64,000 nt of DNA, taken from the NCBI GenBank assembly GCA_947088865.1, contig CAMUHY010000006.1:62001-126000 (forward strand), read 5' to 3'. This DNA is from an uncultured Eubacterium sp. (GTDB lineage: Bacteria > Bacillota > Clostridia > Lachnospirales > Lachnospiraceae). Within the stretch, counting starts at the first letter, position 1, and each line of letters starts with the position of its first letter. The position numbers were made by a program, and so were the translations under genes. The notes beneath the pieces are model-generated. The model did no database searches, was not told where the DNA came from, and saw nothing but the letters and a program-made list of their open reading frames with translations. Positions 6,112 to 45,150 of this stretch are shown here, in pieces.

Positions 6112-8550
6112 CTAATCAACTTTATTTATAAAATGTCCTGTCCATTTTATATCATCACAATTTATTTCATTTTTATTCAATATCCATTTTAAGAATCTAT
6201 TATAAGAATCTCTGTCCATACATACCTCTGGCATATCATAGCGTATAAAATCAGGCTTTATCTTCTCTATTTTATCAAAATGACTGGTTAAATCAAGAAT
6301 CTTAGGACTCCATATAATATTATAACATTCCTTACATCTGCATGATACAGGCATATTTTTATTGAGATAAACCGTTTTGCTGCCGCCGTCACATGTATCA
6401 TATGTCTTTTTCACACACTGCTTAGAAACCATAACTGGAATCCTTCCATAAACGATACATTCGACAGGAACACGCCAATCAACGGCTGCTATCTCATTTA
6501 CATTTAATTCATAGGGAAATGCTATTCGTTCAAGCTGTAATCCGCTCTCTGAAACGATTTTTATAAACTGTAACACAGCCTCACTGTTCCAACAATACAA
6601 ATTTGCATCCAATCTTACTTTTATAGGCAAATCCATCTTTTTTGCTATTTCAGACAATAATCCTATCTGTTCAACATTTCGGACAACAAAGGTATCTATA
6701 TGATGTTTACATGCTGTTTCTATCAATACTTTATACGAACAAAGCTGCTCTTGTGTTATCATATAAGAAAGCGCTATTGCTACCGTCCTGCCCTCTACCT
6801 TAAATTGGTCTATCACTTCCCAGCCTTTATCCGTATCGCAAATGCTGTAATCCATATAAACCTCTTGAAAATAGACCGCTTTATCTACGTTTAAAATAGA
6901 ATCACAAGCTATTATATTAGGCGCGCTGATTACATGGCAAAAATGGTCTTTATCCTCACAAGCTAAAAACAATGCGTTCGACTTGCCACTGGATTTTATC
7001 TTTGGCTCTTTAAAAAAACGCTGCTTTTCTCCAATAATAACATTACATAACGCTTTAATACCACGACGCCTTATATCATTAAGCTGACTTGATGGTATAA
7101 ACACATCACCCTTTATTACAATTTTTATATCGCCTGCAATAAAGGGGGAATCTCCCAATTTCATCAATTTTTCTGTACATGTTTTTTCATCGGATATATT
7201 TTTTAACGCTTTTTCTATTATATCGCCAGTTACATAGACGGTCTGTCCTAACGCGGAAAGTTCAAGCGTCAATGTAGCGCCACACTCTGCAAACAATGTC
7301 ATATCAACCTTTGCTTTTGCACCAGAGGCCTTTTTTACATACTGCTGCTCTACATCACTGGCAATCACTGCATTTTTTGTTCTGTAAAGCACACGCCCCT
7401 TAAACAGAGGATACTTTTTAGGCAAGTTGACAACAAAGGTATCGTTTTTATGGACATCTTCTCCGCTTGAAAAGGAAAAATCCGAATCAATCTCAAATAC
7501 ATCTTGTTTATGAATGGCTCTTAAAGCCTGAAACGTCACTCGCCCATTGATATTTTCTTTTACCTTTAACGCTTTCGTCCCCATATGATTTGGTCTTGTA
7601 ACCGACATCATATCCTTACCTTTTATCGTATTATAATATCCTGTTGTAAATGCGCCCCGATTATAAATATCCATAAGATAATTGATATCTTCCTGCGATA
7701 CTTTATACCCAGACCTGCCATTACTTAAATACATATCTGCATATTTTCTATACATAGCAGTAACACCCGCAGCATATGTAACATTTTTCATACGACCTTC
7801 AATCTTAAGGGCATACACTCCTGCTTCTATAATATCCGGCAGTATCGTTAATGTACATATATCTTTTGGACTGAGCGCATACGCATGTTCTTTATCATTT
7901 ATGATTTTATGCCTATCATTGGCAATACGCTCTGATACCTCATAATCCAGCCGGCATGGCTGCGCGCATCTTCCTCTGTTTCCGCTTCTTGTGCCATTCA
8001 TACTGCTCAGTAGACACTGCCCTGAATAACAGTAACACAATGCGCCATGCACAAAACTTTCTATCTCAATATCACACGATTGATGAATGGAGGCAATCTC
8101 AGACAACGTAAGCTCTCTTGCTAGGACAACACGAGATGCTCCCATATTCTTTAACAGTTTTGCGCCATAGCTTCCTGTAATAGTCATCTGTGTGCTAGCA
8201 TGTATAGGCATATCTGGAAAATAATCGTGTATTTTCTTAAATACACCCATATCTTGAACAATCACGGCATCCAGTCCCGCTTTATAGTAAGGCATCATAT
8301 AATCCAGCAACTGTCCCTCAAGCTCGTGATTTTTTAAGAGTGTATTTACTGTTAAATAAATGGATTTTCCTCTTAAATGAGCATATTCAATTGCTTCAAT
8401 CACCTGCTGTTCATTTAGATTTCCTGCAAATGCTCTGGCTCCAAATAAATTCCCACCAAGATATACGGCGTCGGCGCCTGCATTGATAACCGCTTTGCAT
8501 ATATCCAACGAACCCGCAGGCGCAAGTATTTCTACCTTATTATCTCTCAT
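6112..8550 (-). CDS. U32 family peptidase-like protein with DUF3656 (RlhA/TrhP type)
   Basis: Protein of 812 aa. The N-terminal U32 domain begins VEILAPAGSLDICKAVI and contains ADAVYLGG, HASTQMT and the cysteine-rich SFVHGALCYCYSGQCLLSS region (about residues 165-185) ending in GRCAQPCR; these Cys probably bind an Fe-S cluster. The rest, through CKECYNIIW near residue 765, matches the long DUF3656-containing form. Family members called RlhA and TrhP make hydroxycytidine in 23S rRNA or hydroxyuridine in tRNA, so an RNA hydroxylation role is more likely than proteolysis; the exact target is inference. It starts 2 nt after zapA. Confidence 0.8.
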   Translation of the reverse strand: MRDNKVEILAPAGSLDICKAVINAGADAVYLGGNLFGARAFAGNLNEQQVIEAIEYAHLRGKSIYLTVNTLLKNHELEGQLLDYMMPYYKAGLDAVIVQDMGVFKKIHDYFPDMPIHASTQMTITGSYGAKLLKNMGASRVVLARELTLSEIASIHQSCDIEIESFVHGALCYCYSGQCLLSSMNGTRSGNRGRCAQPCRLDYEVSERIANDRHKIINDKEHAYALSPKDICTLTILPDIIEAGVYALKIEGRMKNVTYAAGVTAMYRKYADMYLSNGRSGYKVSQEDINYLMDIYNRGAFTTGYYNTIKGKDMMSVTRPNHMGTKALKVKENINGRVTFQALRAIHKQDVFEIDSDFSFSSGEDVHKNDTFVVNLPKKYPLFKGRVLYRTKNAVIASDVEQQYVKKASGAKAKVDMTLFAECGATLTLELSALGQTVYVTGDIIEKALKNISDEKTCTEKLMKLGDSPFIAGDIKIVIKGDVFIPSSQLNDIRRRGIKALCNVIIGEKQRFFKEPKIKSSGKSNALFLACEDKDHFCHVISAPNIIACDSILNVDKAVYFQEVYMDYSICDTDKGWEVIDQFKVEGRTVAIALSYMITQEQLCSYKVLIETACKHHIDTFVVRNVEQIGLLSEIAKKMDLPIKVRLDANLYCWNSEAVLQFIKIVSESGLQLERIAFPYELNVNEIAAVDWRVPVECIVYGRIPVMVSKQCVKKTYDTCDGGSKTVYLNKNMPVSCRCKECYNIIWSPKILDLTSHFDKIEKIKPDFIRYDMPEVCMDRDSYNRFLKWILNKNEINCDDIKWTGHFINKVD

Positions 8551-29874: not shown

Positions 29875-29950
29875 AATACAAATAATTGCAATACATTTTG
29901 CCATTTGCTTATAATCTTATTGTGTTTTTAGACATTTTTTTTACAGGAAA

Positions 29951-30050
29951 GAGGCTGTTGTAAAATAGATATTTTATGCTATATAGTAATTATAAGGATA
30001 AAATAAAACTATATATAGTACTTAAAATTCTTTTTACAACAGCCCTTTTT
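29951..30050. repeat. Inverted repeat, terminator or MITE-like
   Basis: Arms GGCTGTTGTAAAA (29953-29965) and TTTTACAACAGCC (30032-30044) are perfect complements around 66 nt of AT-rich sequence, with CTTTTT after it. It can end the pectinesterase transcript. The ends resemble those of IS-related miniature elements, and of the repeat at 22922-23019 (GGCTGTCGCA). Confidence 0.55.
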
Positions 30051-30096
30051 AATTTTAATAAATTTTTATAACAAACCTATTTTTACACAAATCAAA

Positions 30097-30174
30097 TAAT
30101 AGACATCTGCATTTTATATAAACATGACATTGTTTCCTTTGCCTTGTTTTAACATAAAATTCAGATGTCTATTA
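30097..30174. repeat. Imperfect 78-bp inverted repeat
   Basis: Left arm TAATAGACATCTG, right arm CAGATGTCTATTA, with extended weaker pairing (ATTTTAT/ATAAAAT). It lies just beyond the 3' side of the predicted retron RNA, so it may end or process that RNA, but it has no good T tract. Purpose unknown. Confidence 0.45.
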
Positions 30175-30184
30175 CCTTAAGTCC

Positions 30185-30387
30185 TATATTCGATTTTCTG
30201 CAAACAAACATATATTCTGTTCGGACACTTTAGCACGGTGCGGTACTAGTGCGTTTGCGCCGAAGGCTACTGTCTAAACGCACTAGTACCGACTACCGTG
30301 CGAGTGACGCCGAACATTGTGGTGTAATGATTACAATATAACAACCTTGGAGCTTCCCCAAAGCATTTAGACCAGAAAATCGAACTT
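30185..30387 (-). ncRNA. Candidate retron msr-msd RNA
   Basis: On the minus strand this reads in the usual order of retron RNAs. Arm a1 TTCGATTTTCTG (30384-30373) comes first. Then come two small hairpins: CTTTGGGGAAGCTCCAAGG, and one with TGTAAT/ATTACA. Next is a 99-nt long hairpin (30316-30218) whose stem holds CGGTACTAGTGCGTTT / AAACGCACTAGTACCG, ACCGTGC/GCACGGT and TGTTCGG/CCGAACA. Arm a2 CAGAAAATCGAA (30200-30189) is last and complementary to a1 over 12 bp. The GG at 30373-30372 is a candidate branching guanosine. It is GC-richer than its surroundings and next to a retron-type RT operon, but on the opposite strand with its own promoter. Confidence 0.75.
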
Positions 30388-30393
30388 GCCTAA

Positions 30394-30421
30394 ATTGTAT
30401 CATATATTTTACAAATGTCAA
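30394..30421 (-). promoter_or_regulatory. Promoter of the retron RNA
   Basis: Minus-strand TTGACA (30421-30416), 16 nt, TACAAT (30399-30394), with TGA giving an extended -10. The predicted start near 30387 falls just before arm a1, which is what a retron RNA needs. Confidence 0.75.
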
Positions 30422-30451
30422 CTGTATTTTTAGCAAATTTTAGTAAACTGC

Positions 30452-30480
30452 TTGAAAATATGTTAAAATTATACTATAAT
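30452..30480 (+). promoter_or_regulatory. Promoter of the retron protein operon
   Basis: TTGAAA, 17 nt, TATAAT on the plus strand, with start near 30487 and a leader of about 40 nt. It is back-to-back with the minus-strand promoter at 30394-30421; the two -35 boxes are about 30 nt apart, so the two transcripts may be co-regulated. Confidence 0.75.
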
Positions 30481-30527
30481 TTAGGTTATAAAAGTATTTA
30501 TTTTTTACACGAATATCCTTACACCTG

Positions 30528-33353
30528 ATGAACGAATCAATAGAAAGGAAATCATTTGCAGCTATGAAGAATTTAACATCAGAGGAACAACAACGGCTCT
30601 GGAAACTAGACGAACCCCCTATCCGAAAAATATTGCTTTGGGGGCTAGACAGCCAAAAAAATCCATGTTTGCTTATTTTGTATGGAAAACAAGAAGTTGA
30701 GCGGGAACTAAGGTCTTCACCTCGTTCCTATTACGCAGAAGCATATCTGTTAAAACCTACGGTGACCTATACAAATTATGCAGTTTTTCATGGAACAAAC
30801 GGACATTTACCTTCTATCCCAAATACATATTACTGGGAAAGCCAAAATCTGCTCTGTTATACCAGAGGCTATAAAACAGCAGATATATCTTGGGATTATG
30901 ACAGAAGGACAGGCTGGCAGCAAAATATAACGGTCAATCCCCAATATCTTATTAAAGAATTTTATAAAATGGAGCAGACAATTTCTTTTACCTATTATGA
31001 AAAAAGAAATTACACCGATTATATTGCCTCTTTAAAAGAACATAACATTCAATTCAAGGACATTGAACTGATAGAACAGCCTAGCGATTTATTAGGGTTT
31101 GAGGCAAACCATCCTTATATGGGAACAATTATGCCTATGTTTTTCAAAGAACGGTTATATACCAGAAGAAAAGTCCTTAGCCAATGGATTAAGATGCAGC
31201 CTTCGGTTAAAGACTACGAAAATATCCTAAAGATAGCAAGCGTAGAACTGGCATGTGGTATTTTTCAAGAACTTACTATACAAAAAAATCCTATATTGTT
31301 AGAAACAGCTCAACAGATTGACAAAAGCAACATATTATGGGCAAATGAAGCATATCACAGTGGACTTAAGCGTTGTATCAATCAATATATAAGTTTGTTT
31401 GACGAGAAGTTACTGAAAAAGCAAAAAGAATTTATTTATAGAACACTGCCTGAAATGGATTTTCATATTAAGCAATTATCACTAAACGATGCAAAAGATA
31501 CAAAACTAAAGGGAAAAGAACTTGAAGAATATTTAGACAAGCCAAATGCTTACTACAATATTTCATATATTTTTGGCAGTCAGAATCTCTATGAAAAAAA
31601 CACATACACAGACGGAAAAAATGTAAAGAATATTGCATTTAAAAACACCATACAGACAGCAAAGGCATACGGAATGGCGGATGCTATTGGAAAAATAGCG
31701 TACTATCTGGATGCTCCAAGAACAACCTACTATTTTAAAGGAAGCGGCAAAACAGGCGCATACAATTATTATGTACGTTATCTTAGAAGAACACTTGATG
31801 AATACCAAGCAACCGATGAGACAAAATTTATAACGGCTGCTCGCGAGATGCTGACAAGCTACACAGACCATGATAATTTAGATGCTTACTATAATGTTTC
31901 CTACAATTTCTTTTTTGATAGATATTTCAGAGAGGTCATTGCAAATAATGATGTAGCAGAGCGTTCGATATGGAACCGATATCTTGCAGATGTTCTTTTT
32001 ATAGCGCAAAATGCAAAGGCTGAACAGGTACATAAATTTTGTTATACACTGTTAAAAAAAGCAGATGACCATCACCAATTTGACTCTTATGATATCAAAG
32101 AATTGATTGAACTCTCAAAAATACCATATGAAAAAACGGCTCAATTATTTGAAAAAATATTGCTGCCACAATTAAATTCTTTACAAGTATTTGATGCCGA
32201 CATTATGATTGCCTTAATGAACGTGCCATCCGAAAAACTATGGAGTGCGGCAACAGCATATTTTAAACAGACAAATGGAAAATTCCAGCCAGAACATATT
32301 GCTGATTTTCTCTTTTTAGATACGATAGAACGATGGTACAGCATATTAGAAGACAATATTCATCATTTTACGATTGAAGAATATATTGCTTTTGTAAAAT
32401 CAATTGCCCAAAAAAGAGAGCTTTTTTTGAGACAGCAAATTGAACTTTCTGAACAAATTACAGACTTGCTATTAAAATCTGTTGACAAATTGGAAACCGC
32501 AACCATAGAGGAACAACAAGAATTACTGTGCTATTTTACTCCTCTTGTGCTAAGCCTTAAGAAAATTCCAGACTTCCTTTTTGATATAACAGAAAATATC
32601 ATATTCTTTATGCCATATGATATATTAAAAGATACGCTTCAACGTATTGATTTACAGCATAATCGAATTTCAGAAAGAGAATACAACACCGTAGCCCTAT
32701 TAAAGTCATGCAAAGAAGATGTGCTTCCTAAAGACAGCTTAATCCTATCTATTTTAGAAACGGGTTCTAAAAGGCTTGTAAAGACACTGACAGAAATTGT
32801 AGACCGACATCCGACTGCACTTGCCCAAAGAACAACAACTATGCTGCTGCTTTTTGAATGTAATGTATATCATTTAAACAAAACAGCTCAGTCCGTGTTT
32901 GAAGGTTTAGAAATTGAAAAAAGAGAAAAGCTGCATATTATTTTGCTGGATTCTCCGATAGAAAGGGCTTACCAATACGCTTTAAAAAAGCTTGACGACT
33001 GGTATGGAAATAAGCTTCCAACACCATTTATCTCACGTATGATGGAACATCCATGTGTTGAAGTAAAAGCTTACCTTTCCCAGAAAATGAAACATGCCTT
33101 TTCGGATTTAAAGGAGACAAACCCTGATTTATATATTTATTATACAAAAACACTGCTCTATCTTCCAAACAAAGTTTCAAAAAGCAAAGAACGTATATAT
33201 CATACCATTCCTTTGTTTTTGCAATATTATCCTGAAAAACGACAGGAAATCGAACATATACTTCTCGATATTGGAAGCGCAAACAGCAAAATAGATTCTG
33301 AAAGGGCGCTTGTGACATTTGCTCAAATTCAGAAGGAGGTAAGCACTTTATGA
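30528..33353 (+). CDS. Large helical-repeat protein of the retron operon
   Basis: Protein of up to 941 aa, with no catalytic motif that I recognise. An AYYN(I/V)SY motif occurs twice (near residues 340 and 452), suggesting an internal duplication. The second half (from about 490) reads as successive amphipathic helix pairs, like HEAT/ARM-type repeats (for example SILETGSKRLVKTLTEIVDR). No signal peptide or membrane helix. The first ATG has no good ribosome site; ATG at 30564 has AAAGGA at long distance. The stop overlaps the next ATG by 4 nt, so coupled translation. As part of the RT operon it may be an effector or scaffold (inference). Confidence 0.6.
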   Translation: MNESIERKSFAAMKNLTSEEQQRLWKLDEPPIRKILLWGLDSQKNPCLLILYGKQEVERELRSSPRSYYAEAYLLKPTVTYTNYAVFHGTNGHLPSIPNTYYWESQNLLCYTRGYKTADISWDYDRRTGWQQNITVNPQYLIKEFYKMEQTISFTYYEKRNYTDYIASLKEHNIQFKDIELIEQPSDLLGFEANHPYMGTIMPMFFKERLYTRRKVLSQWIKMQPSVKDYENILKIASVELACGIFQELTIQKNPILLETAQQIDKSNILWANEAYHSGLKRCINQYISLFDEKLLKKQKEFIYRTLPEMDFHIKQLSLNDAKDTKLKGKELEEYLDKPNAYYNISYIFGSQNLYEKNTYTDGKNVKNIAFKNTIQTAKAYGMADAIGKIAYYLDAPRTTYYFKGSGKTGAYNYYVRYLRRTLDEYQATDETKFITAAREMLTSYTDHDNLDAYYNVSYNFFFDRYFREVIANNDVAERSIWNRYLADVLFIAQNAKAEQVHKFCYTLLKKADDHHQFDSYDIKELIELSKIPYEKTAQLFEKILLPQLNSLQVFDADIMIALMNVPSEKLWSAATAYFKQTNGKFQPEHIADFLFLDTIERWYSILEDNIHHFTIEEYIAFVKSIAQKRELFLRQQIELSEQITDLLLKSVDKLETATIEEQQELLCYFTPLVLSLKKIPDFLFDITENIIFFMPYDILKDTLQRIDLQHNRISEREYNTVALLKSCKEDVLPKDSLILSILETGSKRLVKTLTEIVDRHPTALAQRTTTMLLLFECNVYHLNKTAQSVFEGLEIEKREKLHIILLDSPIERAYQYALKKLDDWYGNKLPTPFISRMMEHPCVEVKAYLSQKMKHAFSDLKETNPDLYIYYTKTLLYLPNKVSKSKERIYHTIPLFLQYYPEKRQEIEHILLDIGSANSKIDSERALVTFAQIQKEVSTL

Positions 33354-35110
33354 AAGTAGGTTATAAATACGCAAGCCCTTCTCGGTGTATGCAGGTTGAC
33401 AATCAAACAACATTAGGATTCAGTCCCGACTTATCTCGTGATGAAAAGGTTTCTTTCTGCGGAAAATTAAAGCATCCACTATTGTTTCGTGATGCCATGC
33501 TTATGCTTAGAGAAATTGTTATTTCGGACACGAGAAAAAAATCAAAAGAAAGAACCGATTATTTTAAATGGCTTGATGAAGAAATTGAACGTCGTGTAAA
33601 AGCACACAAAGAGTACATGCCAACGGTAAGAGAAGCTTTAAAGAAAGAAATGGATTCTTATGATTTAGAGCTTTCTGATAAACAACATGAAATAAACCAG
33701 TTATTAAATATAAAAAGGAATTTGCAAAAGCAAATTGACCAATACGATGCATGGAAAGATTATTATAAGATTGAACGAGACTTTTGGAAGTTTATAAGGG
33801 ACAGAGATTACAGTTTATGGTTTGTATTAGACCCTGTTATTACCGTACATAATGACCAAGTTTCATTTGAGGCATTCTCCATTGACGAATCCATTTATGG
33901 GTGTCTATCGGTATCTATGAATGAATTTGATTTATTGCAGACACCAAAATTAGGAACAACCAACATTGACTTTTCTGCTAAATTGGAAAAGGAAATGCAG
34001 CGATTTAGAAGCTATACGGACGTCACACTATCGGTCAATCCAGAAGGCTTTACGATAGACAATGATATTGTTCCAGAATATGTGGAAAAGAAAATTGATT
34101 TGCCTGAGACTTGGATTAAAGGCTTTAATCAGGTATCTTCGGCAGCAGCATTGTCTGGTATTGAACTAGAACTTTCTCCTTCTGATATGTATGACATCTG
34201 TGCATTTTTAAGAAAGCACAAAGAAAAGAAAAGTCCTCGTTATATGAAATGGATTTTAGAGCCTCAAAAGCAAGTACAGATTGTATTTGAACCATTTGGA
34301 ACGGTTCTTACACTAAATACCGTTTATCAAGGCAACCAAAAAAGAGAAGAAAAAATTTGGGGCAGAAGACGCTGGCTTGTCGTTGAAAAATTAATTCCTT
34401 TATCAAAAGCATTTTATGTGCGCTTTTTGGGATTTGGAATGCCTCAGTTTATTCGTGCCGATATGGGTACCATGCAAATGACGGTTGGCTTCTCTGCATG
34501 GTCTTCTAACGACTGGGTAAAAGGAACGGCATTTAACATTATGGCTGGATTTTCAGGCAATGCACGTGCTTATACAAATATCTATAAATTGCTGAAAGAC
34601 AAGCGTTGTTTATCTATGCAGGAGATTTCGGACTATTTTCCAAGCGAAAAAAGCGATCATATAAAAGCTAGCGTTGGTATGCTGTTTCGACGAGGTGAGG
34701 GCTATTTTGATATCGTAAATGATAAAGTACGCTTTCGTCATTTATGCAATGCTCCAATTCCAGAAGAGCTTTACGAAATCTCGGATATTGAGATGGATGT
34801 ACAAAAATACAGCAAACTTACATTTGATAATATGAAAGTAAGATACACAAAGCAGCAAGAATTTGTATTTACGACAATGTACAAGGAACGCAACCAATTG
34901 TCCTTTACGGAAATTGTCATTGACCAAGACGGACAAATTACAAAGGTTGACTGCAACTGCCAAAAATTTAAAAGAGGCGAGAGAAACCTCTCACAACCTT
35001 GCGCACATATTCTTGCGCTCTATGTTGCTTCTTATAAATTATTAAAGTTAAAAAATTTGGAATATGAAAAAGAATATAAAATCAATGATATTATGGAGAT
35101 GTTACTATAA
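33350..35110 (+). CDS. SWIM zinc-finger protein of the retron operon
   Basis: Protein of 586 aa. Near the C-terminus is a SWIM zinc finger with pattern C-x-C-x13-C-x-H (Cys535, Cys537, Cys551, His553), a nucleic-acid or protein binding module. Before it, LSMQEISDYFPSE ... VGMLFRRGEGYFDIVNDKVRFRHL (about 425-465) fits a winged helix. The N-terminal 130 residues contain a charged coiled coil (about 95-135). The combination recalls the WHSWIM proteins described next to some retron RTs (from memory). Start overlaps the upstream stop (ATGA) with AGAAGGAGG upstream; the end overlaps the RT start by one base. Confidence 0.75.
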   Translation: MKVGYKYASPSRCMQVDNQTTLGFSPDLSRDEKVSFCGKLKHPLLFRDAMLMLREIVISDTRKKSKERTDYFKWLDEEIERRVKAHKEYMPTVREALKKEMDSYDLELSDKQHEINQLLNIKRNLQKQIDQYDAWKDYYKIERDFWKFIRDRDYSLWFVLDPVITVHNDQVSFEAFSIDESIYGCLSVSMNEFDLLQTPKLGTTNIDFSAKLEKEMQRFRSYTDVTLSVNPEGFTIDNDIVPEYVEKKIDLPETWIKGFNQVSSAAALSGIELELSPSDMYDICAFLRKHKEKKSPRYMKWILEPQKQVQIVFEPFGTVLTLNTVYQGNQKREEKIWGRRRWLVVEKLIPLSKAFYVRFLGFGMPQFIRADMGTMQMTVGFSAWSSNDWVKGTAFNIMAGFSGNARAYTNIYKLLKDKRCLSMQEISDYFPSEKSDHIKASVGMLFRRGEGYFDIVNDKVRFRHLCNAPIPEELYEISDIEMDVQKYSKLTFDNMKVRYTKQQEFVFTTMYKERNQLSFTEIVIDQDGQITKVDCNCQKFKRGERNLSQPCAHILALYVASYKLLKLKNLEYEKEYKINDIMEMLL

Positions 35111-36579
35111 TGGATACAAAAACCGAATATAGAAATCTAGTAAATAATATGGGTAAAAAAGAATTTACCTTCCTTAAGATGCAGGAATATGGTTTTTGGC
35201 CTAGTAACTTGCCAACGCCATATGAACGCCAGCAAAATGAAACCGAGCAGGATTTTGAAAACCGAAAACAACTGCTCGACGAATTTCAAAAACTTTCCGA
35301 AAAAATATCAAAAGCCTATCAGGAAAGAGATGAAATTGAAAAAGCGCTTTCTCGCTTAAAAAAGCAATACCAAAATACATGGGATTATGAAAAAATCCGT
35401 GCTGTTGTAGCACAGGAAATTATGAAAGAATCCATTGCCAGACGAGCTGAACGAAAAGCGGAGAGAGAACGACAAAAACAGCTAAAATCAGAAGCTTGGA
35501 ACAAACGAAAAGCGGAAAATATTATATTTATCGGCAAGGGATATTCCAGCCTATTATCAAAAAAAGAAACGGATATACAAAAACTGAAAGAAAATCAGAT
35601 GCCTGTAATCGAAACTGATAAAGAGCTTGCCGCATTTTTACAGATTGACTACAAAACACTGCGTTATCTAGTATACCACAGGGATGTTGTTACATTTGAC
35701 AACTATTATCGTTTTGATATTCCGAAAAAAAGCGGTGGAACGCGTCATATAGCTGCGCCTAAAACACAACTTAAAACAGCTCAGAGACAAATTTTAGAGC
35801 AAATTTTACAAAAGGTCGAAGTTTCCGATTTATCACATGGCTTTATCAAATCAAGGTCTGTTCTTACCAGTGCAAAAACACATAACACAAGCCCTGATTT
35901 GCTGATAAATATTGATTTGGAAAACTTTTTCCCTACCATTACTTTTGAGCGCGTAAGAGGCGTATATCAATCGTTTGGCTACTCTGGTTATATCGCATCA
36001 CTGCTTGCTATGATTTGTACCTACTGTGAGAGAATGCCGCTTGAAATAAAAGGAAAGATAAAATATATCAAGACATCCGACCGAATATTGCCTCAAGGCT
36101 CTCCAGCAAGTCCTATGATTACAAATATTATATGTAAAACATTAGACAAGCGTATTAATGGCTTATGCCAAAAGCTTGGAATTACTTATACAAGATATGC
36201 CGATGATATGAGTTTTAGCTATACAGGAAATACGGATGATTTTGATATAGGAGACTTTTTAAACAGCGTTAACAAAATTATAGAAGCAGAAGGCTTCCAT
36301 ATGAAAAAAGAAAAAACGCATATCTTAAGAAAAAATAACAGACAGTATATTACTGGTATTGTTATTAACAATGAAGAGATTGGCGTTCCTAAAAAATGGG
36401 TTAAAATATTAAAAGCTTCTATACATAATGCACAGAAATTAAAAGCAGCGGGCGGTTCGGTATCAAATAAAACGATACAAGAAATCTCAGGAAAAATTGC
36501 ATGGCTAAAAAGTGTCAATGCAAAGAGATACCAAAAAGTTATAAATGAGGGTACTAACTTTTTAAAAAGCTTAGCTTGA
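35110..36579 (+). CDS. Retron-type reverse transcriptase
   Basis: Reverse transcriptase of 489 aa. Residues 40-150 are a charged coiled-coil extension. The RT core follows: IPKKSGGTRHIAAPK (about 204-218), HGFIKSRSVLTSAKTH (in the place of the retron NAxxH motif), LINIDLENFFPTI, LPQGSPASPMITNI, and the active site YADDM (Asp365, Asp366). The YITGIVINNEEIGVPKKW stretch matches the retron VTG motif. There is no maturase, HNH, Cas1 or integrase domain, which argues against group II introns and CRISPR RTs. It is the last gene of a tightly overlapping three-gene operon. It should copy the nearby msr-msd RNA into msDNA. Confidence 0.88.
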   Translation: MDTKTEYRNLVNNMGKKEFTFLKMQEYGFWPSNLPTPYERQQNETEQDFENRKQLLDEFQKLSEKISKAYQERDEIEKALSRLKKQYQNTWDYEKIRAVVAQEIMKESIARRAERKAERERQKQLKSEAWNKRKAENIIFIGKGYSSLLSKKETDIQKLKENQMPVIETDKELAAFLQIDYKTLRYLVYHRDVVTFDNYYRFDIPKKSGGTRHIAAPKTQLKTAQRQILEQILQKVEVSDLSHGFIKSRSVLTSAKTHNTSPDLLINIDLENFFPTITFERVRGVYQSFGYSGYIASLLAMICTYCERMPLEIKGKIKYIKTSDRILPQGSPASPMITNIICKTLDKRINGLCQKLGITYTRYADDMSFSYTGNTDDFDIGDFLNSVNKIIEAEGFHMKKEKTHILRKNNRQYITGIVINNEEIGVPKKWVKILKASIHNAQKLKAAGGSVSNKTIQEISGKIAWLKSVNAKRYQKVINEGTNFLKSLA

Positions 36580-36671
36580 TTTATATTAATACATCATTGT
36601 ATGTCTTTAAATTTTAAAAAATAGTTATACATCGAAAGTTTCGTAACGAATACTACTCAAGATATTATAAA

Positions 36672-36717
36672 ACAGGGAGATGGCAACTCATTCTGGGTTA
36701 CCGCCTCCCTGTTTTTA
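36672..36717. terminator. Bidirectional terminator of the retron operon
   Basis: Stem ACAGGGAG / CTCCCTGT with inner AAC/GTT pairing, and T tracts on both strands. It separates the convergent RT gene and the gene at 36733-37503. Confidence 0.85.
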
Positions 36718-36732
36718 TATTATTTTTTTAAC

Positions 36733-37503
36733 TTAATTTCCAATCAATACTACTTGGTCTTTTTCTGGAAATTCAATATCCAACCCCATTTTCCACAGTT
36801 CAAAATAACCTTGAAAAGGATTCTGTATAGGCTGAGGAACAATTAATGACCATTGGAGATAATGTGATAGAAAATAATCATTACTAATATGATACAATGC
36901 CTCATCAAAAAATTGTAAATCTTCACATTCTTCCTGAAATTCTATATCCCTAAACCAATCTGCTATATCCTCATAAATATCATCGCTTGGATGAAACTTA
37001 TTATGGACAAAATCTTGATGCATCTGTTTTTGAAAATCTGCTCCTTCTTTTCCGCTTAATATTGTAATTTTAGGATTGACATCAATAGGAGCAACATCCT
37101 CAAATATTTGGGTATAAATTTGATGAATCGCCTGAATATATCGATTGGCGGCATCTATGGCAGCAGTCTTAGCGGTCTCTTGTTTTACATCCGATTTAGC
37201 AAAAAAATAACCTGCATAACTAATCTGCCCATCAGGTAATTCTATTTGCGCTGTATCTTTGCTGGCTTCATCAATTTCTAACAATCCCTCTAACATTTTT
37301 AAACCAGGCTGACCGTAAAGGCTTAAGATAGGACGCAAGCGTTCCAACTCACCGCCTCGCAGGTCTTGAATTAAGAACGGAGGTACTGCTTCTTGTTCTA
37401 AATCATACTCATGTTCAGAAAAAATATCCCACAATACAGGGTCATTCTGAATTGGCTCTATCCAGCTTTCTGGCAAATACTCTCGACACTCTTCTATGGT
37501 CAT
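36733..37503 (-). CDS. Acidic cytoplasmic protein of unknown function
   Basis: Protein of 256 aa which I do not recognise. It is rich in Glu and Asp and aromatic residues (for example DIEFQEECEDLQFFDEALYHI) and appears mostly helical, without signal peptide, membrane helix or a known catalytic motif. GGAGG precedes the ATG. It lies 51 nt downstream of a lipoprotein gene on the same strand and may share its transcript. Next to a retron it could in principle be an accessory protein, but strand and terminator argue that it is separate. Confidence 0.6.
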   Translation of the reverse strand: MTIEECREYLPESWIEPIQNDPVLWDIFSEHEYDLEQEAVPPFLIQDLRGGELERLRPILSLYGQPGLKMLEGLLEIDEASKDTAQIELPDGQISYAGYFFAKSDVKQETAKTAAIDAANRYIQAIHQIYTQIFEDVAPIDVNPKITILSGKEGADFQKQMHQDFVHNKFHPSDDIYEDIADWFRDIEFQEECEDLQFFDEALYHISNDYFLSHYLQWSLIVPQPIQNPFQGYFELWKMGLDIEFPEKDQVVLIGN

Positions 37504-44805: not shown

Positions 44806-44812
44806 TAATAAA

Positions 44813-45150
44813 TGGAGTAGACGGGAGTCGAACCCGTGTCCAAAAGCCCATTCACTGTTCTTCTACTATTATAGTTGATTGTTATACATTCCCTCCAGCA
44901 TGGGAAAATCAACGTTCCAATGCTTTTAGTAGCTTCATAATACGCCCATCAGCCGCAAAGCTTTGGCTGAGTCGTTTCCTACATAGTCGAAGCCTGAATC
45001 CTAAAGTGTAGGTGCACTAGGTCAGACTGCTGCAACTAGGCAGCGTAAGCTAAATTATCGTTAGCGTTTATATTTAAGTTTACGATTTGACGCATCGTCT
45101 GCGAATAGCTTCACCAGCTTCAAAACCCCTGTCGAAACCTTTACTACCCC
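44813..45150 (-). ncRNA. ssrA: Transfer-messenger RNA (tmRNA)
   Basis: One-piece tmRNA of about 338 nt before CCA addition. The 5' end GGGGTAGTAAAGGTTTCGAC and the 3' end with GGGTTCGACTCCCGTCTACTCC pair as the tRNA-like acceptor and T arm (GGGGTAG with CTACTCC). The message part contains GCT AAC GAT AAT TTA GCT TAC GCT GCC TAG, giving a tag ending ANDNLAYAA. If the resume codon is the AAC after CGTA, the whole encoded tag is NLNINANDNLAYAA. CCA is not encoded. It rescues stalled ribosomes and marks the products for proteolysis. Confidence 0.96.

Follow-up and report, generated by a model that had tools for sequence, protein, structure and literature searches.

A Firmicutes type XIII retron locus with a divergent, movable ncRNA gene and a predicted clamp-like partner protein

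The locus occupies positions 30185..36717 of the window, the whole 64,000-nucleotide stretch of DNA analysed (uncultured Eubacterium sp., contig CAMUHY010000006.1). Three plus-strand genes were taken from the ORF list: an ARM/HEAT-solenoid gene (30528..33353, 941 aa, WGR_XIII-like, possible start at 30564), a SWIM_XIII gene (33350..35110, 586 aa, PADLOC SWIM_XIII 1.8e-176) and a retron reverse transcriptase (RT) gene of the type XIII clade (35110..36579, 489 aa). The ORFs overlap by 4 nt (ARM and SWIM) and 1 nt (SWIM and RT), which confirms the overlapping three-gene operon described in an earlier sequence-only reading; the ORFs, motifs and structured RNA that it had placed at 30185..36717 were all present there. 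The operon promoter, TTGAAA-17-TATAAT, lies at 30452..30480 (plus strand, consensus match 11/12), and a probable terminator, a 10-bp inverted repeat followed by a T run, was read from the letters 3' of the RT gene (36670..36717, plus strand). The repeat was absent from the terminator scan because its loop exceeds 8 nt. The order ARM-SWIM-RT was kept across homologous loci. An element resembling the operon promoter was readable 5' of the operons of L039, L050, L052 and L057, all without a local ncRNA.

The RT was screened against PADLOC and Pfam models. PADLOC RT_XIII was matched at 2.5e-156 (519 bits, against 272 bits for the next best model) and Pfam RVT_1 at 8.5e-27, so that a profile check against the retron RT clades placed the protein inside them, with type XIII as the best match. 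The RTs of retrons carry the motifs NAxxH, YADD and VTG. Their counterparts in the window protein are SAKTH, YADD and ITGI, and all three motifs named in advance (SAKTH, ITG, YADD) were found. YADD was kept in 55 of the 56 RT rows listed and was missing only from the truncated L086. The RT tree was built from 53 rows, leaving out L075, L085 and L086 (stop) and L047 (contig without an RT).

The 941-aa protein was modelled with AF2 (pLDDT 89.6) as a beta-rich N-terminal part at about residues 30-155 followed by a helical solenoid of ARM/HEAT type, in agreement with its first description as a helical-repeat protein. Many homologues start at the position of the internal Met (30564). PADLOC WGR_XIII was matched weakly and over residues 414-855 only (6.4e-09, 32.8 bits), and no WGR domain was recognised by Pfam search. 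Alignment by hhalign to the first protein of the Methylobacterium bullatum locus covered only 82 columns at 19% probability. The ARM protein is fast-evolving. Its alignment was made from 38 of the 55 ARM rows.

The second protein matched PADLOC SWIM_XIII with 586 bits over residues 1-560. Its SWIM zinc finger, CxC...CxH (34952..35008, plus strand, residues 535-553), was found in 25/25 aligned homologues (25 of 57 rows were aligned); the Pfam SWIM match (8e-4, 19.3 bits) fell just below the cut-off of 19.6. A segment at 34514..34744 (plus strand, residues 389-465) was labelled winged-helix-like by the analyst from the secondary structure of the model. The SWIM zinc-finger/winged-helix protein of the earlier reading corresponds to these two parts; the predicted clamp, which would form its bulk, had not been foreseen. 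A two-domain clamp fold at residues 35-387 (33452..34510, plus strand), interrupted at about residues 61-160 by a coiled-coil-like helical hairpin, appeared in one predicted AF2 model of middling confidence (pLDDT 74.1, pTM 0.70; input alignment of 25 related rows, Neff 1.9), and was aligned to PCNA 1-255. Most of the protein is accordingly predicted to be a PCNA-like clamp, with a fold shared by the rings that keep DNA polymerases on DNA. No PCNA-family sequence match was obtained by hmmscan or, with a shallow profile, by hmmsearch. In the pore helices, with ends extended by the analyst, 15 positions are Lys or Arg in at least 80% of the 25 homologues, and the mean net charge is +7.2 over 58 residues versus −7.0 over the 217 other residues, a contrast that stands out only weakly in permutations (p 0.028 with extended helix ends, 0.115 with DSSP helices only).

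A retron ncRNA (msr-msd) was identified on the minus strand, divergent from the operon, at 30187..30388 (nhmmer 30388-30187; CM 30395-30184). Covariation and the covariance model gave a structured msr-msd RNA with a1/a2 pairing: the a1 arm, at the RNA 5' end, lies at 30373..30386 and the a2 arm at 30187..30200, and over 43 homologues changes were seen on both sides in 13 of the 14 alignment pairs of this helix (13 of 14 also form in the window, one as G-U). The msr stem-loop (30344..30364, minus strand) has 9 pairs, with 93 G-U versus 0 A-C cells on this strand. The msd hairpin (30233..30301, minus strand) consists of an outer stem, an asymmetric bulge, a fully paired variable stem of 16 bp and a loop. 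None of 200 shuffles folded as well as 30180–30400 (z −6.9), and the consensus energy was −37.6 for the minus strand versus −25.8 for its reverse complement. G·U pairs made up 15 of 987 pairs in the msd stem (8 of 68 ncRNA rows, two of them weak antisense matches, failed the pattern and were dropped), 93 of 383 formed pairs in msr and 33 of 588 in a1/a2; the low share in the msd stem may point to selection at the DNA level. The ncRNA promoter, TTGACA-16-TACAAT with an extended -10 TG (30394..30421, minus strand, consensus 11/12), has an equivalent in the same place in 23/23 upstream-type loci (10 to 12 of 12 consensus positions; spacer 16 in 22 loci and 18 in L047). Computation thus shows the ncRNA and RT on opposite strands, the former with its own sigma-A-type promoter. 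The msr-msd-like RNA that had been noticed adjoining the operon was borne out in its a1/a2, msr and msd anatomy and corrected in its strand; being on the minus strand, it stands beside the operon and is not its leader.

Taken with the overwhelming PADLOC matches of RT and SWIM protein, the retron anatomy of this RNA upholds the original proposal of a retron with winged-helix/SWIM and repeat-protein partners, and the locus was assigned as a Firmicutes type XIII retron, type XIII being a known but little-studied defence type of bacterial RT locus. Among relatives, computation on the sequences shows an ncRNA gene that is relocated, tandemly multiplied or unlinked, with the scaffold kept and the msd stem changing. 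In another group of loci the ncRNA lies downstream of the operon, on the co-directional strand; elsewhere it forms arrays or lies on other contigs, and for L057 and L088 none was found anywhere in the searched sequence. The ncRNA and operon co-occur among genomes, which is consistent with a functional link between them.

One alternative is an ordinary cassette, in which the ncRNA would lead the operon on the plus strand in the manner of textbook retrons. The RNA lies just upstream of the first gene, and the hairpin folds in the plus orientation too (z −6.9 against shuffles). In 14/43 homologues the stability of the reverse complement equals or exceeds that of the minus strand, and the two orientations differ little over the 25 pairs that they share (24 G-U, 10 A-C). 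The plus orientation, however, would put the long hairpin before the small one, the reverse of the msr 5' of msd arrangement given for all experimentally validated retrons in an excerpt of PMC6868368, and would fill the msr stem with 93 A-C mismatches in place of G-U pairs. With a strong minus-strand promoter abutting a1 in every upstream-type locus, and the homologous strand co-directional but downstream in the other group, a leader is highly improbable. Counting against a separate ncRNA gene, validated retrons have theirs within the RT's transcript; in that excerpt a single cassette on one strand is a feature of the retrons known in 2019, which does not make it a mechanistic requirement. That errors of assembly or binning produced the trans copies and arrays is improbable to a lesser degree. 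The three genomes with unlinked copies are all metagenome assemblies, the L050 trans pair is 0.3 kb away from the end of its contig, and extra copies in the genomes of L055, L058, L072 and L081 are on other contigs, some at contig starts. Against this, the single-contig complete genome NZ_CP097810, from the isolate Clostridium sp. ASF356, carries an array of four copies, and most array copies have diverged from each other and are thus no repeats of one read. On the trans stretches L105-L107 the ncRNAs have promoters and no ARM, SWIM or RT was found, and the operon contigs continue past the operon on either side without the ncRNA; each half of the finding would therefore stand even with a mixed bin.

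A somewhat unlikely explanation, though the least so of those weighed here, is that the clamp fold arose in modelling, or survives as an ancestral remnant that does not work as a clamp, in a protein acting as a plain DNA-binding regulator through its winged helix and SWIM finger; the shallow alignment, the middling pLDDT, the missing PCNA match at sequence level and the weakly unusual pore charge all speak for it. That the locus regulates genes or maintains the genome, and does not act in anti-phage defence, is judged unlikely. Eleven neighbouring window proteins gave no convincing defence model, their few weak hits being short stretches of chemotaxis-, kinase- or regulator-type protein, no catalytic effector domain was recognised in the locus proteins, and the SWIM protein had no match in 50,697 phage records; set against these are the sporadic presence of the locus (15/392 genomes of the order), empty sites in genus relatives, a fast-evolving partner protein and the part that other retron types play in defence.

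The favoured explanation, a type XIII retron with an autonomous ncRNA gene, in which an RT–msDNA–clamp–solenoid complex would use msDNA as bait and block replication, is held as a whole with moderate confidence. We infer four steps, given in decreasing order of confidence. Recognition by the RT, if necessary in trans, would rest on the conserved scaffold of a1/a2 and msr; reverse transcription of msd would give a mature DNA hairpin whose duplex, about 16 bp long, could vary in sequence with little effect on the RT. RT–msDNA would sit in a silent complex with the solenoid protein and the clamp/SWIM protein, the latter holding the msDNA duplex by its pore helices and its SWIM/winged-helix part. 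The msDNA would be bait, and its disturbance by phage enzymes for cutting, methylating or coating DNA would free or activate the proteins; varied msd stems in arrays would give a wider range of triggers; excerpts of PMC12548924 (a methyltransferase trigger in another retron) and PMC12887533 (SSB as the trigger of retron Eco8) follow the same bait logic. Finally, the clamp-like protein on DNA would interfere with replication, the fast-evolving solenoid being the sensing or docking part; since no catalytic domain was recognised, such interference would be the most likely effector action, and this step is a guess based on the fold. A trans-acting repertoire retron, in which one RT/clamp/solenoid complex would serve a movable, expandable ncRNA set with a constant scaffold, swapped msd stems and hence several msd baits, and phage interference with any one bait would release a clamp to block replication, is a doubtful extension.

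Retrons are usually described as compact cassettes with one ncRNA. As far as the literature searched goes, what is new here is an ncRNA with a gene of its own, which can move and is sometimes present in several copies, together with a predicted clamp partner. The ncRNA behaves like a gene in its own right that multiplies, and its presumed sensing part varies while the scaffold stays fixed, which raises the question of whether one retron RT reads several msDNAs to widen what the cell can sense. Such RTs may naturally use trans-supplied ncRNAs and tolerate many msd sequences, properties of use in making and editing DNA. A PCNA-like clamp in RT-based immunity, if true, would link defence and replication machinery unexpectedly and offer a first mechanistic handle on type XIII; a repertoire retron, if true, would mean several distinct DNA-hairpin baits per cell, held by a PCNA-like ring protein.

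Among known systems, the E. coli yeh cluster (YehI DUF4132, YehQ SWIM) likewise sets a SWIM-finger protein near a large DUF4132-family protein, but its proteins have no meaningful profile similarity to those of the locus. Sliding clamps such as PCNA share the two-domain clamp predicted in the SWIM protein; they differ in sequence (identity about 10-11%), and here a helical hairpin is inserted in domain 1, a winged helix and SWIM finger are appended, and the ring is only putative. PADLOC retron type XIII was matched strongly by RT and SWIM protein and weakly by the ARM protein. In the literature searched, outside which lay the main retron classification and census surveys, 'retron' with 'type XIII' was met only in a Variovorax paper (PMC11953036), an excerpt of which lists such a retron by PADLOC. 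In the type XIII locus of M. bullatum, where the RT was identified by visual inspection of its motifs, the genes stand in the same order, but a 0.3-kb gap with a long hairpin, a candidate ncRNA, separates SWIM and RT, which overlap here; a weak WGR-like segment (E 0.046) is present in the first protein of that locus, whereas here no WGR was recognised and the ncRNA lies elsewhere and is autonomous. Retron-Eco1/Ec86 cassettes resemble the locus in a1/a2, in msr 5' of msd and in an RT with NAxxH-, YADD- and VTG-like motifs; they form a single polycistronic cassette in the excerpt of PMC6868368, whereas the ncRNA of the present family is divergent, downstream, tandem or unlinked.

Three overlapping genes, all reading rightward, make up the operon: those of the solenoid protein ARM (30528–33353, + strand, 941 aa), the predicted clamp-winged-helix-SWIM protein SWIM (33350–35110, +, 586 aa) and the reverse transcriptase RT (35110–36579, +, 489 aa). 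Against the PADLOC models, RT matched RT_XIII (2.5e-156, 519 bits; second-ranked model, 272 bits), SWIM matched SWIM_XIII (1.8e-176), and ARM matched WGR_XIII (6.4e-9) over residues 414–855 only. This profile check placed RT in the retron RT clades, as the sequence-only reading had proposed. In Pfam, RVT_1 alone scored above its cut-off, with the SWIM finger slightly below, and no Rfam family reached its gathering score in the region of the ncRNA and operon. The AF2 model of ARM (pLDDT 89.6, alignment of 38 sequences) predicted a beta-rich N-terminal part followed by a HEAT/ARM-like solenoid, with generic matches only.

The ncRNA, an msr-msd RNA gene at 30187–30388 (−), lies in a region (30180–30400) that folded at z −6.9 against shuffles and, used as a query, retrieved homologues from relatives. 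Over 43 homologues, both-side changes were found in 23 of 36 predicted pairs, and in 13 of the 14 pairs of the a1/a2 helix, which bears out the earlier suggestion of a structured msr-msd-like RNA beside the operon. Several lines of evidence assigned it to the minus strand: a consensus energy of −37.6, versus −25.8 in the plus orientation; the pairing bias read in that strand (93 G·U versus 0 A·C cells in the msr stem, 33 versus 3 in a1/a2); the position of msr 5' of msd, the order given for all experimentally validated retrons (PMC6868368); and promoter conservation. Counting against this placement, folding energy by itself preferred minus in just 29 of 43 homologues, the pairs shared by the two orientations (25) were only slightly asymmetric, with 24 G·U against 10 A·C, and matches to a promoter were in themselves not scarcer than in shuffled sequence (5 against 4.3 expected), so that the weight of the promoter argument lies on conservation.

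The ncRNA promoter (−; TTGACA-16-TACAAT, extended −10) ends at 30394, directly before a1. An element agreeing at 10 to 12 of 12 consensus positions stood at the same place in 23/23 loci with an upstream, divergent ncRNA, although close kinship among some of them leaves fewer than 23 independent cases. A separate promoter (30452–30480, +), pointing the other way, belongs to the operon. Promoters (10–12 of 12) were carried by the four trans copies, which are unlinked from the operon; among the 22 sources with the ncRNA downstream of RT, a promoter-like TTGA-17-TAT element (9 to 11 of 12) preceded the lead copy in 16 and was not seen there in the other 6.

A covariance-model search of 55 sources (the window and relatives' loci L033 and L036–L088; E under 1e-19) found 57 ncRNA copies in 45. 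The ncRNA was upstream and divergent in 23 (2.6 kb away in L051) and downstream of RT, on the operon strand, in 22. Five copy-less sources (L048, L058, L072, L076, L086) are cut by a contig edge on the flank that bears the ncRNA in their kin; the other five, L039, L050, L052, L057 and L088, are not. Whole-genome searches located one copy away from the operon in each of the genomes of L039 and L052, and in that of L050 a tandem pair, 0.3 kb short of a contig end; they found none for L057 or L088. The stretches holding these four copies gave no match to ARM, SWIM or RT. In the RT tree, whose midpoint root is weak, the upstream, trans and three unplaced rows formed one side of a single branch (28 rows, support 100/99), with every downstream row on the opposite side; the three trans rows require three separate changes. 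Extra copies were seen on non-operon contigs, some at contig starts, in the genomes of L055, L058, L072 and L081 (stretch L140 was inspected), and are either assembly-cut arrays or further trans copies.

Among the 392 genomes of the order sample the ncRNA occurred in 15 and the SWIM gene (E ≤ 1e-50) in 15, and because 14 genomes had both, the ncRNA belongs to the type XIII ARM-SWIM-RT system. The sole ncRNA-only genome (G625) has RT next to two ncRNA copies, at the end of a contig (L139). In the sole SWIM-only genome (G668) the match has the coordinates of L048, the operon of which starts 292 nt from a contig end. The family sample (58 genomes, nested in the order sample and contributing sensitivity only) had each in the same 9 genomes.

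Of the tandem arrays, that of L054 held six copies, that of L056 (the complete genome NZ_CP097810 of Clostridium sp. MD294 strain ASF356) four, that of L075 three, and those of L053 and L060 two each; G625 has two beside RT, and the genome of L050 a trans pair. The TTGAC promoter was present solely at the copy nearest the operon in L053, L054, L056 and L060; in the trans pair each copy has a promoter. Across 21 copy pairs within L054 and L056 the scaffold was kept at 80–96%, with msd stem identities of 30–60% (19 pairs) or 84–91% (two pairs); the msd identity within the pair was 48% in L053 and 83% in L060. Corresponding copies of L054 and L056 had msd 75–98% identical. From the kept scaffold, the varied msd and this likeness between loci, turnover of array units seems to proceed cassette by cassette.

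In single folds the msd has an outer and an inner stem separated by an asymmetric bulge, and a loop that is frequently CAGTA-CCT. Of the 35 copies upstream or in trans, 25 had 16 or 17 bp as their longest uninterrupted helix; of the 25 downstream copies, 17 had 11 or 12 bp. G·U made up 15 of 987 pairs over 55 distinct msd stems, which come from related sequences, versus 93 of 383 formed msr pairs; this scarcity suggests, short of proof, selection on a DNA duplex, as reverse transcription predicts.

The window's own genome (3.29 Mb, 48 contigs) holds a single type XIII RT and a single ncRNA copy; the other row, a weak one, is the hairpin matching itself in antisense. With five aligned SWIM proteins as the pattern, a search of 84,980 species genomes turned up 53 loci. 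All 50 with the three genes had the order ARM-SWIM-RT on one strand; L047, L058 and L088 lack one gene at a contig end. Loci at greater distance (L033, L062–L078, L080–L083, L085–L088), many from Clostridium, were 29–37% identical to the window in ARM (42% for a partial copy in L072) versus 55–65% in SWIM and 54–63% in RT, so of the three proteins the solenoid has changed at a much higher rate. Viral contigs and phage records yielded no confirmed relative; plasmid records gave one near-full and six partial matches, all below 60% identity. L075 and L081 come from metagenome bins labelled Lokiarchaeota, by gene transfer or mis-binning. In L085 and L086 the SWIM match is split in two and the RT row has a stop, and these copies are apparently decaying. 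Transposase-like genes, read by eye, split ARM from SWIM in L068 (6266–7654) and RT from the ncRNA in L078 (11598–13563), the ncRNA being retained in both. A 779-aa gene between RT and the ncRNA of L081 (11337–13676, −), SIR2-like by eye from its first residues, may be a further defence gene, lying inside the retron.

In 4/5 fetched genus relatives (L143–L146) a pectinesterase gene is followed directly, with no retron between, by the gene, for a lipoprotein or a histidine kinase, found to the right of the retron in the window; neither was seen in the fifth, L142. Directly after the probable retron terminator lies a 256-aa ORF (36733–37503, −), found in its own genome alone among 21 of the genus, absent from every retron locus fetched from another genome, and with no Pfam, NCBIfam or PADLOC match of weight. 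Since the relatives' sites are without the retron and the ORF is confined to this genome among those 21, the two are probably an insertion in the window's lineage. PADLOC gave no convincing match for nine further neighbours. Left of the ncRNA is a palindromic repeat (29948–30052; GGCTGTTGTAAAA...TTTTTACAACAGCC); the query 29930–30180 had 33 matches in its own genome, including itself and antisense rows, most to the first 140 bases, and the repeat looks like a MITE-like family. A tmRNA gene (tag ANDNLAYAA) lies at 44810–45150 (−).

The identity, anatomy, strand, mobility and co-occurrence of the retron and its ncRNA were shown by computation, and the folds of the operon proteins are predicted. 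As further steps we infer an msDNA, a protein complex, a bait role and an effector. A phage methyltransferase (PMC12548924) and a phage SSB (PMC12887533) are described as triggers in other retrons, by analogy with which the bait reading of the msDNA is reasonable.

The kind is already known, as retron type XIII. The window's ARM is distant from the WGR protein of Methylobacterium bullatum. In the M. bullatum type XIII retron (L141), a long hairpin with almost perfect pairing lies between the SWIM and RT genes (7670–7980) and is a candidate classical ncRNA. In the part of the literature that was searched, neither an ncRNA that is autonomous and can be relocated, tandem or unlinked nor a PCNA-like clamp was found for retrons; the movable ncRNA and the predicted clamp are features new to us.
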